DNA from: Aurantimicrobium photophilum
Lineage (GTDB): Bacteria > Actinomycetota > Actinomycetes > Actinomycetales > Microbacteriaceae
Direction of reading: 5' to 3'
NCBI RefSeq assembly: GCF_003194085.1
Contig: NZ_CP023994.1
Location: forward strand, 992,001-1,056,000
Length of the DNA: 64,000 nucleotides
The notes beneath the pieces were generated by a model. It made no database searches, was not told the origin of the DNA, and was given only the letters and a program-made list of their open reading frames with translations. How positions within the stretch are numbered: the first letter of the stretch is position 1; every line of letters starts with the position of its first letter. Made by a program: the position numbers and the translations under genes. Positions 3,819-46,081 of this stretch are shown one piece after another.

Positions 3819-3954
3819 CACTATTGATGTATATCAAAGTGAAACGAGCACATACGAAATGTGCAGGTTCTCGACCGTACATCGAGAACCACTCAGTGGA
3901 CGCGAACATCAGGCCACACAACCCAGCCTTACAACGGGTTATGTGTAGTGATTA
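3819..3954 (-). other. 23S-5S spacer with processing-stem arm and hairpin
   Basis: Positions 3875-3910 are the 3' arm of the 23S processing stem: in the transcript they pair with 7184-7219 in the 16S-23S spacer over 36 positions with only two mismatches. Overlapping this arm is a local hairpin, GGTTCTCGA (3866-3874) with TCGAGAACC (3882-3890), which would compete with the long-range stem. No gene is seen here. Confidence 0.75.
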
Positions 3955-9011
<5,057 letters not shown>

Positions 9012-40268: not shown

Positions 40269-40931
40269 ATGGATCTCGAAAAACTTAGGTTGCTCGTCTA
40301 CACAACCTTTGCCCAAACAGGTGCAGCTCCTGGGAGATGTTTCATTGCCGAGACAATGATGGTTCCAGAAGAAGAAGTTATCGATGGACTCAAAGCCCTT
40401 GCTAGCCAAAGACATCTTGCTTTAGACCCCAAAGATGAAATTGCAATGGCACATCCCTTTTCATCAGTCCCTCTTGGTTTTTCAGTAATGAGTGAAAACA
40501 CACTGTGGTGGGGAGGATGTGCATGGGATTCTTTCGCCCTCGTACATCTCTTGGACACCGAGAACTCCTATCTCGTCGCAACGACGTGCCCGAATTGTGA
40601 CAATGCGCTCGCTTGGAACGTGAGTACCCAAAAAGCTCCGCAAGGCAAGCAAGTTGCACACTTTCTGATACCCACCAGCCATATGTGGGATGACGTGGTT
40701 CACACTTGCAGTAATCAAAGAATTTTTTGTGATGAACTTTGCGTTGACGAATGGCTGAAAAGAACTCAGCATGATCGTGGTTACGTCATGGATCTGGATA
40801 CTTTATGGAAGCTTGCGTCTGACTGGTACACAGGAAGACTTGAAAAGGGTTACGTTCGCAGAGAACCCTCACAAGCTAAAGAATATTTAAGAAACGTCGG
40901 CCTCTCGGGTAGTTTCTGGGGACTTGACTAA
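40269..40931 (+). CDS. Alkylmercury lyase (MerB)-family protein
   Basis: A 220-residue protein with the MerB fold pattern. The organomercurial lyase triad is matched: Cys84 and Asp87 in WGGCAWDSFA (C-x2-D) and Cys154 in RIFCDELCVDEWL. MerB cuts carbon-mercury bonds. Extra Cys107 and Cys110 (CPNC) are unusual. No merA, merR or merT is seen nearby, so the real substrate may differ; MerB-like proteins without mer genes are known. AAGGAGG precedes the ATG at 40269, and it lies 18 bp after the lysE gene in the same direction. Confidence 0.75.
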   Translation: MDLEKLRLLVYTTFAQTGAAPGRCFIAETMMVPEEEVIDGLKALASQRHLALDPKDEIAMAHPFSSVPLGFSVMSENTLWWGGCAWDSFALVHLLDTENSYLVATTCPNCDNALAWNVSTQKAPQGKQVAHFLIPTSHMWDDVVHTCSNQRIFCDELCVDEWLKRTQHDRGYVMDLDTLWKLASDWYTGRLEKGYVRREPSQAKEYLRNVGLSGSFWGLD

Positions 40932-41024
40932 GGACTAGGAATGTTCAGTTTCGTGCAGTTGTTGATCGGCAGCTTCACCGCCTAGGACTTAACGAACAAA
41001 CCCCCGCAGTTTCTTGGGTTCTAA

Positions 41025-41067
41025 TGGTCGTTGCAACACTCCATCTTTTTGGAGGTTGCAACGACCA
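41025..41067 (+). promoter_or_regulatory. Hairpin covering the IS30 transposase start
   Basis: The left end's TGGTCGTTGCAAC (41025-41037) repeats in inverted form at 41055-41067, directly before and over the transposase ATG at 41067. The loop holds the GGAGG ribosome site. A transcript entering from outside would fold and hide the start, a protection against read-through known from IS10-type elements. Confidence 0.65.
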
Positions 41068-42482
41068 TGTCTTTTACCCCGCCACCCACAGGTTCCCGAA
41101 GGCGTTATTCCCAGGCTGAGAAGGCCGCATTTTTTGAGGCTTTTGAGCGTTTAGGAAATGCTAGAGCTGCCGCTAGGGAGTTAGATTTACCTTTCCTCAC
41201 CAGTTATCAGTGGCTTGTTGCTGCAGGTGTTGATGTTGGTGCGCCGCGTCGTCAACGCCACAGCCGTGTCCGTGAGCACTATTTCAGTTTGCGTGCTGCG
41301 GGCGTTTACCGATCGGATGCGGCCAAGCAGGCGGGTGTTCATATTCGTACTGCCCAAGATTGGGACAGAGGGATAGTGAAGAAAATCCATTCACGCATCT
41401 ATCCTGATGGCCGTGTTATCGACTACAACAAGAGTGTGAATGTTCAAGAGCGACTTGTTAGCGGTGTTCGTGTTTCTGCTCTGGAGCAGGTTCTGGATCC
41501 GAGGTTTCTCTCACTTGCTGAGCGGGAAAAGATTCGTGGGCTTCAGTCGCAGGGGGTGAGTGTTCGTTCCATGGCCACAGCGTTGGGCAGGGCTGCTTCG
41601 AGTATTAGTCGGGAGCTCAAACGCAATAGTGTCGAGGGTGTTTATGAGCCTTATGCGGCTCATCGGGTTTCTGTTATGCGCAGGCCGAGGCCGAAAACTC
41701 GTAAGATTTTGACTCAGCCGGCTTTGCAGGTGTTTGTTCAAGAGGGATTAGATAATCAGTGGTCTCCGGAGCAGATTTCCAACAAGTTGGTTGAAGAGTT
41801 TCCCGGCAGTCAGGAGATGCGAGTGTCACCGGAGACGATTTATCAAACCTTGTATTTGCAGGCTCGTGGTGGTTTGAAGAAAGAGATCCAGGCGGCTCTT
41901 CGCACCGGTCGCACCAGGCGCAAACCCCACAACACAGGGTTGGAGAGACAGCCTCGGTTTGTTGATCCGATGGTGATGATTTCTGAACGTCCTGCCGAGA
42001 TCGAAGACAGGGCCGTTCCGGGGCATTGGGAAGGTGATCTGATTGTTGGCACGCAAAACAGGTCAGCTATTGCGACGTTGGTGGAGCGCAGCACACGGTT
42101 TGTGATGCTTGCACACCTTCCCGGTGATCACACGGCAGAAACTGTTCGCGATGCACTAATCACAACGATGCAGACCCTGCCTGAGCATTTGCGGGGGTCG
42201 TTGACTTGGGATCAGGGCGTTGAAATGGCAAGGCATAAAGAATTCAGTATCGCCACAGACATGCCTGTCTATTTCTGTGATCCAGCAAGTCCTTGGCAGC
42301 GCGGATCAAACGAGAACACCAACGGACTCCTCAGACAGTATTTCCCCAAGGGCACTGACCTGTCAGTGTTTGGTCCTGAAGACCTTGAAAGAGTCGCCCT
42401 GCAACTCAACGGACGGCCAAGAAAAACACTCGGCTGGAAAAATCCAGCCGAGTGTTTAAGAGACCTACTAGTGTCGAACTAA
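41067..42482 (+). CDS. IS30-family transposase
   Basis: A 471-residue DDE transposase. An N-terminal region with helix-turn-helix segments (AAKQAGVHIRTAQDWDRG) and the IS30 HTH (LSLAEREKIRGLQSQGVSVR) precede the catalytic core: first Asp in GHWEGDLIVG, second Asp in LTWDQGVEM, Glu in SPWQRGSNENTNG. I take the ATG at 41067 (MSFTPPPTGS) with GGAGG 11 bp upstream; the frame open from 41031 is inside the terminal repeat. The frame and catalytic residues are intact, so it may be active. Confidence 0.93.
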   Translation: MSFTPPPTGSRRRYSQAEKAAFFEAFERLGNARAAARELDLPFLTSYQWLVAAGVDVGAPRRQRHSRVREHYFSLRAAGVYRSDAAKQAGVHIRTAQDWDRGIVKKIHSRIYPDGRVIDYNKSVNVQERLVSGVRVSALEQVLDPRFLSLAEREKIRGLQSQGVSVRSMATALGRAASSISRELKRNSVEGVYEPYAAHRVSVMRRPRPKTRKILTQPALQVFVQEGLDNQWSPEQISNKLVEEFPGSQEMRVSPETIYQTLYLQARGGLKKEIQAALRTGRTRRKPHNTGLERQPRFVDPMVMISERPAEIEDRAVPGHWEGDLIVGTQNRSAIATLVERSTRFVMLAHLPGDHTAETVRDALITTMQTLPEHLRGSLTWDQGVEMARHKEFSIATDMPVYFCDPASPWQRGSNENTNGLLRQYFPKGTDLSVFGPEDLERVALQLNGRPRKTLGWKNPAECLRDLLVSN

Positions 42483-42490
42483 ATCACGCC

Positions 42491-42506
42491 AGTGTTGCAA
42501 CGACCA
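42491..42506. repeat. IS30 right terminal inverted repeat
   Basis: AGTGTTGCAACGACCA is the exact complement of the left end at 41025-41040. Confidence 0.9.
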
Positions 42507-42558
42507 ATTGAATTCGCCTTTCCTGCGGGGATTTGGATGCTCGTAGGTCCGGAACGAA

Positions 42559-43311
42559 TTAGTCCTGTCGAGAACGAACGCGTGCAATGTTGATGACGAC
42601 TGCGCCAACGAGAAGAAGCACGGCACCCAGACCAAGGTATTGATATGACTGGACCTCGTTGATACCGGTGTGAACAAGGCTGGGGTCGGTAATAACTGAT
42701 GTGGAACTACTACTTGAAGACGGTTGTGAACTGGGGCTTACAAAAGTGAGGTACGTTTCAAAATCGAGGCACTCAGGTGTGGCAACCCAAGTACCAGGAG
42801 TAGTTGAAGTAACTCTCTGCCAACGGCCAGGATTTATTCCTACAGTGTAAACATTGTAAAAATTGCCAGCTCCACTTGAAGTAACACTGAAGACAACTGC
42901 ATAGTCGCTACCGCTAGTCAGCGAAGCGGGGGATGAAAAATCGACAGGAACCAAACCTGGCGTGGAGCTGGAAACCGCCGATTCTAAAATGGTGCCTGTT
43001 GAAAGCGATGGTCCAGTGGGTACACCGTTCGACGTGGCATAAACATCAACCGTAATTGCGCCAGGAGTTCCGGTCTTCAACAGCGCGACCTGGAAACGGT
43101 CAAGTAGTGCTGTATAACCCGATGTATAGACCTGGCCCTGTGTATGCGTTCCATCCAGTGTGACGTACTGTGACATCGATCCATGAGCAGATTCTTGGCG
43201 TATTCCAACGGCATTTGCTGGAATTGCAGAAAATAGACCGATAGCAAGGAAGCAAAGGGAAGTAACTATCGCTGAAATCTTAACAATCATCACTGAATAG
43301 GAAGTTGGCAT
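42559..43311 (-). CDS. LAxTG-like surface protein 1 (choice-of-anchor R-type domain)
   Basis: A 250-residue exported protein. A signal peptide (about 1-34, ending PANA-VG) leads to one beta-rich domain of the choice-of-anchor R type (LLDRFQVALLKTGTPGAITV, VPVDFSSPASLTSGSDY), a Ser-rich linker (SSSSSST), and a C-terminal sorting tail: LVHTG, a hydrophobic segment and RVRSRQD. The motif resembles the LAxTG of class E sortases, so covalent wall attachment is likely; a sortase gene is not here. Start at 43311 is supported by the promoter layout shared with its paralogue. Homologous to the gene at 43392-44192. Confidence 0.78.
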   Translation of the reverse strand: MPTSYSVMIVKISAIVTSLCFLAIGLFSAIPANAVGIRQESAHGSMSQYVTLDGTHTQGQVYTSGYTALLDRFQVALLKTGTPGAITVDVYATSNGVPTGPSLSTGTILESAVSSSTPGLVPVDFSSPASLTSGSDYAVVFSVTSSGAGNFYNVYTVGINPGRWQRVTSTTPGTWVATPECLDFETYLTFVSPSSQPSSSSSSTSVITDPSLVHTGINEVQSYQYLGLGAVLLLVGAVVINIARVRSRQD

Positions 43312-43349
43312 ATTTGAAAGATAACGAAACTCATGTACTTCGTTAGAAG

Positions 43350-43367
43350 TTCATACACATGTATGAA
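43350..43367. promoter_or_regulatory. 18-bp palindromic operator upstream of surface protein 1
   Basis: TTCATACA-CA-TGTATGAA, a perfect palindrome, repeated at 44232-44249. It sits 24 bp upstream of a -10-like GTTATC (43325-43320 on the minus strand), which in turn is 8 bp from the ATG. It is nested in a wider inverted repeat, CATGTACTTC/GAAGTACATG (43333-43374). Confidence 0.75.
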
Positions 43368-43391
43368 GTACATGCGAGCGTCTTTTCAAAA

Positions 43392-44192
43392 TTACTCTGA
43401 ATGAATTCGCCGATTACGAGTGAGATTTAACACAACTCCGATAAGAACAAAAGAAAAACCTGCTACGAGCAACAGCCCAAAAACCGAAGTTCCCGTAGAT
43501 GCAAGCGAAGCTGATGAACTTGCACTTGAAGATGCACTCGATGAACTGCTCACGCTTGGTGAGGAGCTTGGCGCAGTGACTGCTGTAACAAAAGTTGAGA
43601 ATCGGAACCCGTAATTCACGTTTTGCCAGTTGTTGGCTCCAAATTCATAAAGAACTTGATTCGCAGCTGGAGCTACGCCACCAATTGAAAAAAAATAACC
43701 ATCAATTTGGGGCGACATTCCTCCGCCTAATTGATTCAATAGAGAACTTTGGCTGGTAGCGGATGGAGACTTGAGCACTAAAACATAGTCAGCCCCAGCA
43801 GTAACACTGGCAGGAGAAGAAAAATCAAAAACGGCAATTGTCAGGGAACTCGAAACCGCAGAATCTGGAACTGAAGCAGACGCCATTACCGGCCCACTGG
43901 GAACTCCATTAGCAGCGGCATATAACTCCGCCGTTAGCAAACCGGGATTTCCGTTCTTCAGCAGGTTGACTGTTACTCGATCGAGCAATCCCGTTCGACC
44001 AGAAGTGAATCGTTGTGCCATGTTCATGTCCGAGTACATCTGAACGTACCCGTTGTCATTACCGACATACTGCTGATCTATAGTCCCGACTGCTGAGGCA
44101 GGGCTTGCAGTTAAGATTGCCGAGGCAAATACAGCAAATGCAGCGAAAAATGATGCGATAACTGACGTGCGGCGCGTAACTGACGTTGACAT
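43392..44192 (-). CDS. LAxTG surface protein 2 (choice-of-anchor R-type domain)
   Basis: A 266-residue exported protein, paralogue of the one at 42559-43311. Signal peptide about 1-34 (ending SPASA-VG); one beta domain with FTSGRTGLLDRVTVNLLKNG and FDFSSPASVTAGADYVLVL; a Ser/Ala-rich linker (SSSASSSASSSAS); then LASTG, a membrane segment (FGLLLVAGFSFVLIGVVLNL) and NRRIHSE. LASTG fits class E sortase LAxTG exactly. The ATG at 44192 is chosen as it begins the signal peptide; the open frame to 44327 runs into the regulator's promoter. AT-rich codons contrast with neighbouring housekeeping genes. Confidence 0.82.
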   Translation of the reverse strand: MSTSVTRRTSVIASFFAAFAVFASAILTASPASAVGTIDQQYVGNDNGYVQMYSDMNMAQRFTSGRTGLLDRVTVNLLKNGNPGLLTAELYAAANGVPSGPVMASASVPDSAVSSSLTIAVFDFSSPASVTAGADYVLVLKSPSATSQSSLLNQLGGGMSPQIDGYFFSIGGVAPAANQVLYEFGANNWQNVNYGFRFSTFVTAVTAPSSSPSVSSSSSASSSASSSASLASTGTSVFGLLLVAGFSFVLIGVVLNLTRNRRIHSE

Positions 44193-44200
44193 GGATTCAC

Positions 44201-44279
44201 GATAACCGGCGCCAAACTGCACGTGAAGAAGTTCATACAACTGTATGAAAGCACCTCCGTACCGGGGTCCCGCTATATG
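44201..44279. promoter_or_regulatory. Divergent promoter with shared 18-bp operator
   Basis: The palindrome TTCATACA-AC-TGTATGAA is at 44232-44249. Leftwards, 25 bp on, is GTTATC (44206-44201) with the surface-protein-2 ATG 8 bp further. Rightwards, 24 bp on, is TATATG (44274-44279), a likely -10 for the response regulator. One site is thus placed symmetrically for both genes, which suits activation by a dimeric regulator. Confidence 0.7.
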
Positions 44280-44316
44280 TTGTAAAAGTGAGAGAGCCTT
44301 TAGAAAGGAGGGGTCA

Positions 44317-44994
44317 ATGAGAGACACACGAGTTCTCTATGTCGAAGATGACCCCGCTCTGCGTGCCATCATGAGCAAACTCCTCCACAGTCAAGACGGC
44401 ATTGACGTTGTGGCAAACGTTGGAAACTCTCACGAAGCTCTTGAGTGTGCTCAAACATCTCAAATAGATGTTGCCTTGCTCGATATCGCTCTCGGTCACA
44501 ACAGTGCCACAGGCCAGGAACTTGCACTTCAGCTGAGATCCATCAACTCCAACATCGGTATCGTGATCTACTCTCAACATGCTGAGGTGAATTTCCTCTC
44601 TCAACTTTCAGCACGGAACCTCGAAGGATGGTCCACCATCCAAAAGAGCGCGTCCATCGATATGCCCTACTTGGTAGATGTCCTGCGCTCAACAGCACGT
44701 GGACTTTCCATCATCGACCCCAAAATCTTGGAAACAGAGCGAAGCGAATCCTCAACTGAGTTTGAGCAGCTCACCCCACGCCAGCACGAAATTATGGCTC
44801 TCATCGTGGAAGGCATTGATGTCCCCCACATCTCAGAGAAGTTAGGGGTTTCTGCGGTGACTATCCGTCAGGAACTTTCGAGAATTTACAAAGTGATTGT
44901 GCCCGAACCAGCTCCTGGCACAGACCTGCGCACAACTGCGGTTCTGCGATATCTGCGACGAAGCCGAAGCTATGCCTGGACTCATGGCGAATAA
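44317..44994 (+). CDS. LuxR/NarL-type response regulator
   Basis: A 225-residue two-component regulator. The receiver domain (about 1-125) has the acidic pair Glu10-Asp11-Asp12 (YVEDDP) and the phosphorylated Asp56 in VALLDIALG; the conserved Lys is in IQKSAS. The C-terminal helix-turn-helix of LuxR type is at about 145-190 (LTPRQHEIMALIVEGIDVPH). ATG at 44317 follows AAAGGAGG. The downstream histidine kinase gene overlaps it. It very likely binds the palindromes in front of itself and the two surface genes. Confidence 0.9.
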   Translation: MRDTRVLYVEDDPALRAIMSKLLHSQDGIDVVANVGNSHEALECAQTSQIDVALLDIALGHNSATGQELALQLRSINSNIGIVIYSQHAEVNFLSQLSARNLEGWSTIQKSASIDMPYLVDVLRSTARGLSIIDPKILETERSESSTEFEQLTPRQHEIMALIVEGIDVPHISEKLGVSAVTIRQELSRIYKVIVPEPAPGTDLRTTAVLRYLRRSRSYAWTHGE

Positions 44995-46081
44995 CAAACT
45001 CAGTTCGAGTAATCGTGCCCGCCGTATAGCTGAATTTATCGCGGGACCCTGGTCTATTCGCCCCATTGGATTTGGAGTCATTTCAGCCTTTCTGAACCAA
45101 TTCTCCGACGTTCGCGCAGCGGTGAGCGCGGGACGAGCACCGGTGATGGCCTGGCTGGAAAGCTTCCCCTCGAGTGCCGCAATTGGACTCTCTCTTGGTC
45201 TGAGTTTTGCCGCACTTGCGTGGGCCATGCGACGAACTGAGCCACTCCGACGGAAACAGCTCATCTACCACGTGGGTATTGCACTCATCGCCATAGGTTT
45301 TGCTGTGGCCTACGGCCTGTTTTATAACAGGCCCTTCAAGGATGTCCCGTTCAACAGCGTGCGAGTGTATCTCGCGATAATGGTTGTCTCCATCATCTTC
45401 GGCGTGGGAGAGAAGCGCGTGAGAGCACAAGCCAGTCGTGCCGAAAGTGCACTTGCCGAGGTAGACAGACAACGTTCACTTCTACTTCAAGCCGATGAGG
45501 ACACCCGCCGAGAAGTAGCGGACCTTCTCCATGACCGTGTTCAAGCTGGTCTCGTCGTGGCGAACCTCGAACTCAATAAGATTTCAGAAAAACTCTCGGA
45601 GCAACACAAAGCAGAAATTCGCTCTATCGTGGCCGAGCTGGAAGAAATCCGCCGATTCGATGTCCGTGATGCCAGCAGACTCCTCAGCCCCGACATTGCC
45701 GTTCAAGGTTTGAACCACTGCATTTCTGAACTGACGCAGCGCTACCGGAGCACCATGCAGGTCTCGGTTCAGCTTGATGAATATCATTCAGAATTTCCTG
45801 TTGAGAAACTTCTTGCGATTTATCGCATCTGCGAACAGGGACTTCTCAACGCTGCGCTACATGGGAATGCTGACCATTGCCTGATTCGAACATCAACCGA
45901 AAGCGACGGCACTGTTGTGATCCTGGTGGAAAACAACGGGGCACCACTATCCGAAAAACCTCACACTGCTGGTTCCGGTACTGCTGTTATCGACGCATGG
46001 GTGAGCAAATTTGGCGGGACGTGGTCCCTCACAAATAGCGGAAGTGGCCAAGTTCAGCTTCGCGCGACTTTGACCACGTAG
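44972..46081 (+). CDS. Sensor histidine kinase, HisKA_3/NarX-like, membrane bound
   Basis: About 369 residues. Three or so membrane segments lie in the first 150 (SAAIGLSLGLSFAALAWAM, IYHVGIALIAIGFAVAYGLF, VRVYLAIMVVSIIFGVG) with little outside the membrane, so the signal may be membrane-borne. A coiled linker leads to the phosphorylated His187 in ADLLHDRVQAGL, then a HATPase_c domain (CEQGLLNAALHGNADHC; VENNGAP; GSGTAV). Compared with classical kinases the H-box is LLHDRVQ. The start is ATG 44972 or 44984, overlapping the regulator by 11-23 bp, so both are made together. Confidence 0.85.
   Translation: MPGLMANNKLSSSNRARRIAEFIAGPWSIRPIGFGVISAFLNQFSDVRAAVSAGRAPVMAWLESFPSSAAIGLSLGLSFAALAWAMRRTEPLRRKQLIYHVGIALIAIGFAVAYGLFYNRPFKDVPFNSVRVYLAIMVVSIIFGVGEKRVRAQASRAESALAEVDRQRSLLLQADEDTRREVADLLHDRVQAGLVVANLELNKISEKLSEQHKAEIRSIVAELEEIRRFDVRDASRLLSPDIAVQGLNHCISELTQRYRSTMQVSVQLDEYHSEFPVEKLLAIYRICEQGLLNAALHGNADHCLIRTSTESDGTVVILVENNGAPLSEKPHTAGSGTAVIDAWVSKFGGTWSLTNSGSGQVQLRATLTT

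Follow-up and report, generated by a model that had tools for sequence, protein, structure and literature searches.

The best-described relatives of the system analysed here are regulators of the NarL/FixJ family. In Escherichia coli NarX/NarL, the regulator combines a receiver domain with a GerE DNA-binding domain, the 7-2-7 operator is an inverted repeat of about 7 bases around a 2-bp centre, and a single NarL dimer site at -44.5 activates the ogt promoter (PMC7419079). BldM of Streptomyces, also of NarL/FixJ type, controls development as an atypical orphan response regulator and binds 5′-TCACcCgnncGgGTGA-3′, a palindrome of 16 bp around a 2-bp centre; such 2-bp-centred palindromes are usual in the family (NarL; BldM, PMC4125116). 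In Streptomyces MacRS, the regulator belongs to the NarL family and the gene order is histidine kinase (HK) followed by response regulator (RR) (PMC9739842); the title of a reference cited in PMC10345050 gives control of multiple morphogenic membrane-protein genes.

We analysed a window of 64 kb (the whole stretch of DNA under study) from Aurantimicrobium photophilum, in which a two-component system (TCS) adjoins two surface-protein genes. The RR gene (44317..44994, + strand) encodes a 225-aa protein with a receiver domain and a LuxR-type (GerE) helix-turn-helix, as in NarL, to which it is similar in sequence; both domains were matched above cut-off (PF00072, 53.5 bits; PF00196, 28.8 bits). 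The RR profile matched structures of DesR, NarL, VraR, and DevR, and residues E10, D12, D56, and K110 (the acidic pocket, phosphosite, and Lys) were invariant across seven RR orthologues. The preliminary description had spoken of a LuxR-type regulator, which is right for the DNA-binding domain, but the protein is a NarL/FixJ response regulator; an autoinducer-binding LuxR of the quorum-sensing type was rejected because the N-terminal domain is a receiver. The equivalog models of named regulators (NarL, UvrY, MadR, DesR, and others) gave at best 52 bits, below the cut-offs of 242-300 that apply to the top models.

The HK gene (44984..46081, + strand) starts within the end of the RR gene and encodes a protein with a membrane N terminus and a NarL/UhpB-type kinase core, matched by the UhpB, MctS, and NarQ equivalog models at scores below their cut-offs. 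The HATPase_c match (E = 0.01) was below the Pfam cut-off, and an LLHDR motif was recognised by eye. The DHp His motif and a HATPase domain, encoded beside a cognate NarL-type regulator gene, place the kinase in the HPK7/NarX type. Hydropathy analysis gave the HK orthologues between two and four membrane segments each; a large extracellular domain was absent.

The locus also departs from each of the described systems. Unlike NarX/NarL, it has another site sequence, putatively leaderless actinobacterial promoters, cell-surface targets, and one site for two divergent promoters, and the RR falls below the NarL equivalog cut-off (50 versus 250 bits). It shares with BldM an actinobacterial NarL/FixJ-type regulator and a palindrome, here a candidate binding site, with a 2-bp centre; in contrast to BldM, it has an adjoining kinase gene, a conserved acidic pocket and phosphosite, and a very small regulon. 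The likeness to MacRS, by description only and for membrane-protein gene control as far as the cited title goes, is that of a TCS with a NarL-type regulator, whereas MacRS has the order HK-RR, a pleiotropic regulon, and another host organism.

Both surface-protein genes lie on the - strand. Surface gene 1 (42559..43311) encodes 250 aa with an LVHTG sorting-like motif, and surface gene 2 (43392..44192) encodes a 266-aa member of the same family with an LASTG sorting-like motif; they are paralogues, with proteins that are 37% identical. Both proteins combine a hydrophobic N-terminal region with a beta-rich ectodomain, and a Ser/Pro linker, an LPXTG-like motif, a transmembrane segment, and a basic tail were also found in both. 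Sorting-signal models matched below cut-off. The LVHTG motif of surface protein 1 is atypical; this protein, which ends in a hydrophobic segment and a basic tail, gave a weak NCBIfam sorting-signal match. The genome contains two sortase-domain genes, and the surface proteins, predicted to be exported, are probably attached by sortase. A structure predicted for surface protein 2 (mean pLDDT 64) has a beta-sandwich ectodomain, for which Foldseek returned matches of low TM-score to phage baseplate and tail proteins and to carbohydrate-binding modules; we assign it no function.

Downstream, surface gene 1 is adjoined by an IS30-like insertion sequence (window 41019-42512) with 22-nt inverted repeats (41019-41040 and 42491-42512) and a transposase containing HTH_38 and rve domains. 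Between lysE and this element is a gene for a MerB-like protein (window 40269-40931; alkylmercury lyase PF03243, 70 bits), and no MerB-like gene was seen at the corresponding place in genome G201.

It had been claimed that an 18-bp palindrome, TTCATACA-N2-TGTATGAA, occurs twice at this locus, and both copies proved exact. Operator 1 (43350..43367, no strand; TTCATACA-CA-TGTATGAA) stands before surface gene 1, and operator 2 (44232..44249, no strand; TTCATACA-AC-TGTATGAA) is common to the divergent promoters of surface gene 2 and the RR; the proposed regulon here comprises three promoters and two sites. The operator has the form of an 8-2-8 inverted repeat, a candidate site for a regulator dimer, and both copies are followed by the same short run, CTTCT. 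A pattern search of the window allowing up to 3 mismatches returned operators 1 and 2 only (0.11 expected), and these were the only two exact copies in the complete 1.75-Mb genome, where all other matches had 3 mismatches, the same level as a reversed-pattern control. An RNA hairpin formed by the palindrome was set aside because its 2-nt loop is too short. Operator 1 is additionally bracketed by a wider inverted repeat, CATGTACTTC and GAAGTACATG (window 43333-43375), of which there is none at operator 2.

The preliminary description gave 24 and 25 bp from the palindrome to GTTATC for surface genes 1 and 2, 24 bp to TATATG for the RR, and 8 bp from GTTATC to the ATG. All of these distances are correct, but the hexamers themselves are better replaced by a TANNNT register 2 bp further inside. 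The -10 elements are then TATCTT for surface gene 1 (43318..43323, - strand) and TATCGT for surface gene 2 (44199..44204, - strand), which stand 26 bp from operator 1 and 27 bp from operator 2, respectively, and each 6 bp before the ATG, and TATGTT for the RR operon (44276..44281, + strand; 26 bp from operator 2). When 12 promoters from five genomes were compared (seven of exported genes and five of RR operons), it was found that all 12 had TANNNT starting 26 (n = 5) or 27 (n = 7) bp from the palindrome, and in 5000 shuffles no 2-bp bin exceeded 6 of 12. A 13th promoter, found blind through surface-protein homology, had TANNNT at 27 bp. The arrangement of operator 2, one site between two divergent promoters, is kept in genomes G201 and G173.

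The distance from the -10 element to the ATG was 6-7 bp in six of eight exported-gene promoters, and a TANNNT element some 12 bp ahead of the start is a published mark of leaderless genes in Actinobacteria (PMC3160421). Because their -10 elements are only 6 bp from the ATG, both surface genes would be transcribed into leaderless mRNAs with 5′ ends at or adjoining the ATG, and a transcription start at this place would put the centre of the site near -47/-48. A search for a -35 element in the site-bearing promoters yielded 2.77 matches, versus 2.66 in shuffled sequences, and none was recognisable.

Relatives of the RR were sought in other genomes; a contig scan with the single RR protein found none, whereas an alignment query did. 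Orthologues were rare: they were present in 9 of 400 Microbacteriaceae (E <= 1e-45), in two of eight species of the genus, and in metagenome-assembled genomes (MAGs) of other Actinobacteria; a phylum-wide search of 395 other genomes gave no further RR orthologue. The palindrome is kept 85-90 bp upstream of the orthologous RR in G201, G173, G154, and G092 (A. minutum, a MAG of Aurantimicrobium, and a pair of species from another genus), with at most R/Y variation of its outer bases, and the DNA around it is unalignable. The gene order clpP-clpP-lysE-[surface genes]-site-RR-HK-tig is common to A. photophilum, G201, and G173, and the unit is therefore no recent arrival in A. photophilum. Among 396 genomes of the order, the form YYCATACANNTGTATGRR occurred in A. 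photophilum and in one of the 395 others (G381, single copy). No other RR-free genome of the order has a perfect palindrome. The G381 copy (L116:1501-1518) starts 9 bp past the stop codon of a gene for an unrelated NarL-type regulator, part of an HK-RR pair; it may be there by chance, or it may serve a second regulator of the same specificity.

The identity of the protein that reads the site was approached through the RR orthologues. The core ACA-N2-TGT was found within 130 bp upstream in 17 of 21 of them, compared to 0.57 expected from shuffles, and the bases flanking it change from one RR clade to the next in step with the motif of the recognition helix: VTIRQEL/DL pairs with TGTATG, VTVRQELSKC with TGTTCG, YVRKEL/YVRKQL or YVRAEL with TGTGACA, and GVVRQEL with TGTCT, with a weaker fit in L069 and L070. 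The clades were taken from a FastTree tree that was midpoint-rooted and carried no support test. This co-variation is the best computational evidence on the question, and it favours the RR itself as the protein that binds the palindrome. Were the binder instead another dimeric transcription factor, encoded elsewhere, with the TCS merely one of its targets, flanks that follow the recognition helix through the RR tree would be unexpected, and the site would not be predicted to be nearly absent from RR-free genomes. We regard such a factor as improbable; in its favour are the RRs of G010, L078, L079, and L080, which have no exact core within 130 bp upstream, and the indirect nature of the link between regulator and DNA, which is drawn from sequence. 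It is far less probable still, to the point of being scarcely credible, that the palindromes have no regulatory function and arose by chance or as a relic of the surface-gene duplication. The paralogy of the two surface genes, together with the operator and CTTCT shared by both, would suit a relic, but neither chance nor duplication accounts for a site that is conserved across genera within unalignable spacer DNA, keeps a fixed TANNNT spacing in every one of the 12 promoters, also precedes unrelated exported proteins, and is nearly absent from 395 other genomes. These results reject a chance or duplication origin, unless the conservation merely reflects the way in which genomes were sampled.

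We consider it highly probable that this NarL/FixJ-family TCS activates its own operon and a changing set of cell-surface genes from a dimer site near -47/-48. The kinase would sense an envelope or environmental cue and phosphorylate the RR at Asp56; the RR dimer would bind the 8-2-8 palindrome through its ACA-N2-TGT core and, centred near -47/-48, recruit RNA polymerase to TANNNT promoters that have no usable -35 element. Operator 2 would then fire both ways, towards the RR-HK operon (positive autoregulation) and surface gene 2, and operator 1 would fire surface gene 1. The proposal of a dimeric LuxR-type activator bound near -45, acting on itself and on two surface genes, is thus largely upheld by the conservation, the -10 spacing, and the helix co-variation. 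Activation is deduced only from the position of the site, and the sign of regulation is invisible to computation. Autorepression is common among response regulators, and the same RR might bind the site as a repressor, silencing its own operon together with the surface genes until a signal lifts the dimer. We think this unlikely, since 26-27 bp separate the end of the site from the -10 element downstream of it, so that the site is beside the core promoter and not over it, and the promoters, with no -35 better than shuffled, look activator-dependent. Against repression there is also the equal geometry at target and autoregulatory promoters, which is like that of NarL activation at ogt (-44.5; PMC7419079).

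Sites were also found before genes elsewhere. In G201, the gene for an exported 532-aa LAETG protein is preceded by a second perfect site, at 39 bp from the ATG, and G154 and G092 have second sites, also at 39 bp, before genes for exported proteins of about 945 aa with Listeria-Bacteroides repeats. On the contig, some 1.15 Mb lie between these latter sites and the RR, so the RR would act on them in trans. The G154 and G092 targets have no LPXTG tail, their C terminus looks OmpA-like by eye, and a sortase search gave no match in either genome. A search with the surface-protein family revealed a third member in G201 (L124:1462-2238) with a degenerate site, AATTCACACATGTATGAA, at 2302-2319, and no member in six congeners that do not have the RR. 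This third member, whose promoter with its half-degenerate operator is the 13th described above, has a leadered GTG start and a Shine-Dalgarno-like GAAGGAG. G201 also has, inside the cluster at the RR locus, an exported protein of the LARTG type, again with Listeria-Bacteroides repeats (L036:3474-5150), but no palindrome was present upstream of it.

The association with exported proteins was evaluated at 19 loci by scoring the neighbours of the TCS, up to 1.5 kb away, for an ACA-N2-TGT core near the start of the gene. The core was present at 17 of 20 exported neighbours versus 3 of 25 others (Fisher p = 8.6e-7), where export was called by a hydrophobicity heuristic, surface gene 2 of the window and one G201 gene were scored as non-hits because the longest-ORF start overran the site, and some counts are interdependent because divergent genes share one operator. 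The targets vary by lineage and include beta-sandwich LAXTG, Listeria-Bacteroides repeat, BspA leucine-rich repeat, Fn3, and DUF285 proteins.

The mechanism is of a kind already known, and the regulator is of the ordinary NarL/FixJ type; as far as the literature consulted shows, the regulator-operator family, the cell-surface regulon with changing targets, and the shared precise geometry are new. The unit had not been recognised at the outset, and in the literature, consulted largely outside subscription sources, we found nothing matching it, either for Aurantimicrobium or for surface proteins with LuxR-type regulators; it is not unique to this genome. The chances seem to us evenly divided on whether it represents an undescribed TCS family of aquatic Actinobacteria dedicated to a changing repertoire of large exported proteins, in which a gene would enter the regulon by gaining an operator at a distance of 26-27 bp from its leaderless promoter, with co-evolution of regulator and operator clade by clade. 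Streamlined planktonic freshwater Actinobacteria have few regulators, and their surface remodelling is little understood. If the reading is true, the TCS could be a switch of surface identity, for example against grazing or phages or for particle attachment. The concrete regulon, with transcript starts predicted to the base and a co-varying regulator-operator pair, is testable in a cultivable genus and could guide the search for surface-protein genes of uncultured relatives that are controlled in the same way.

At two loci, several cores were seen just downstream of the kinase gene and before an exported gene. L073 has three tandem ACA-N2-TGT cores 21 bp apart, or two helical turns (~4424-4473), and L072 has four such cores (~3832-3942). 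These tandem cores are a multi-site variant of the single-site design.
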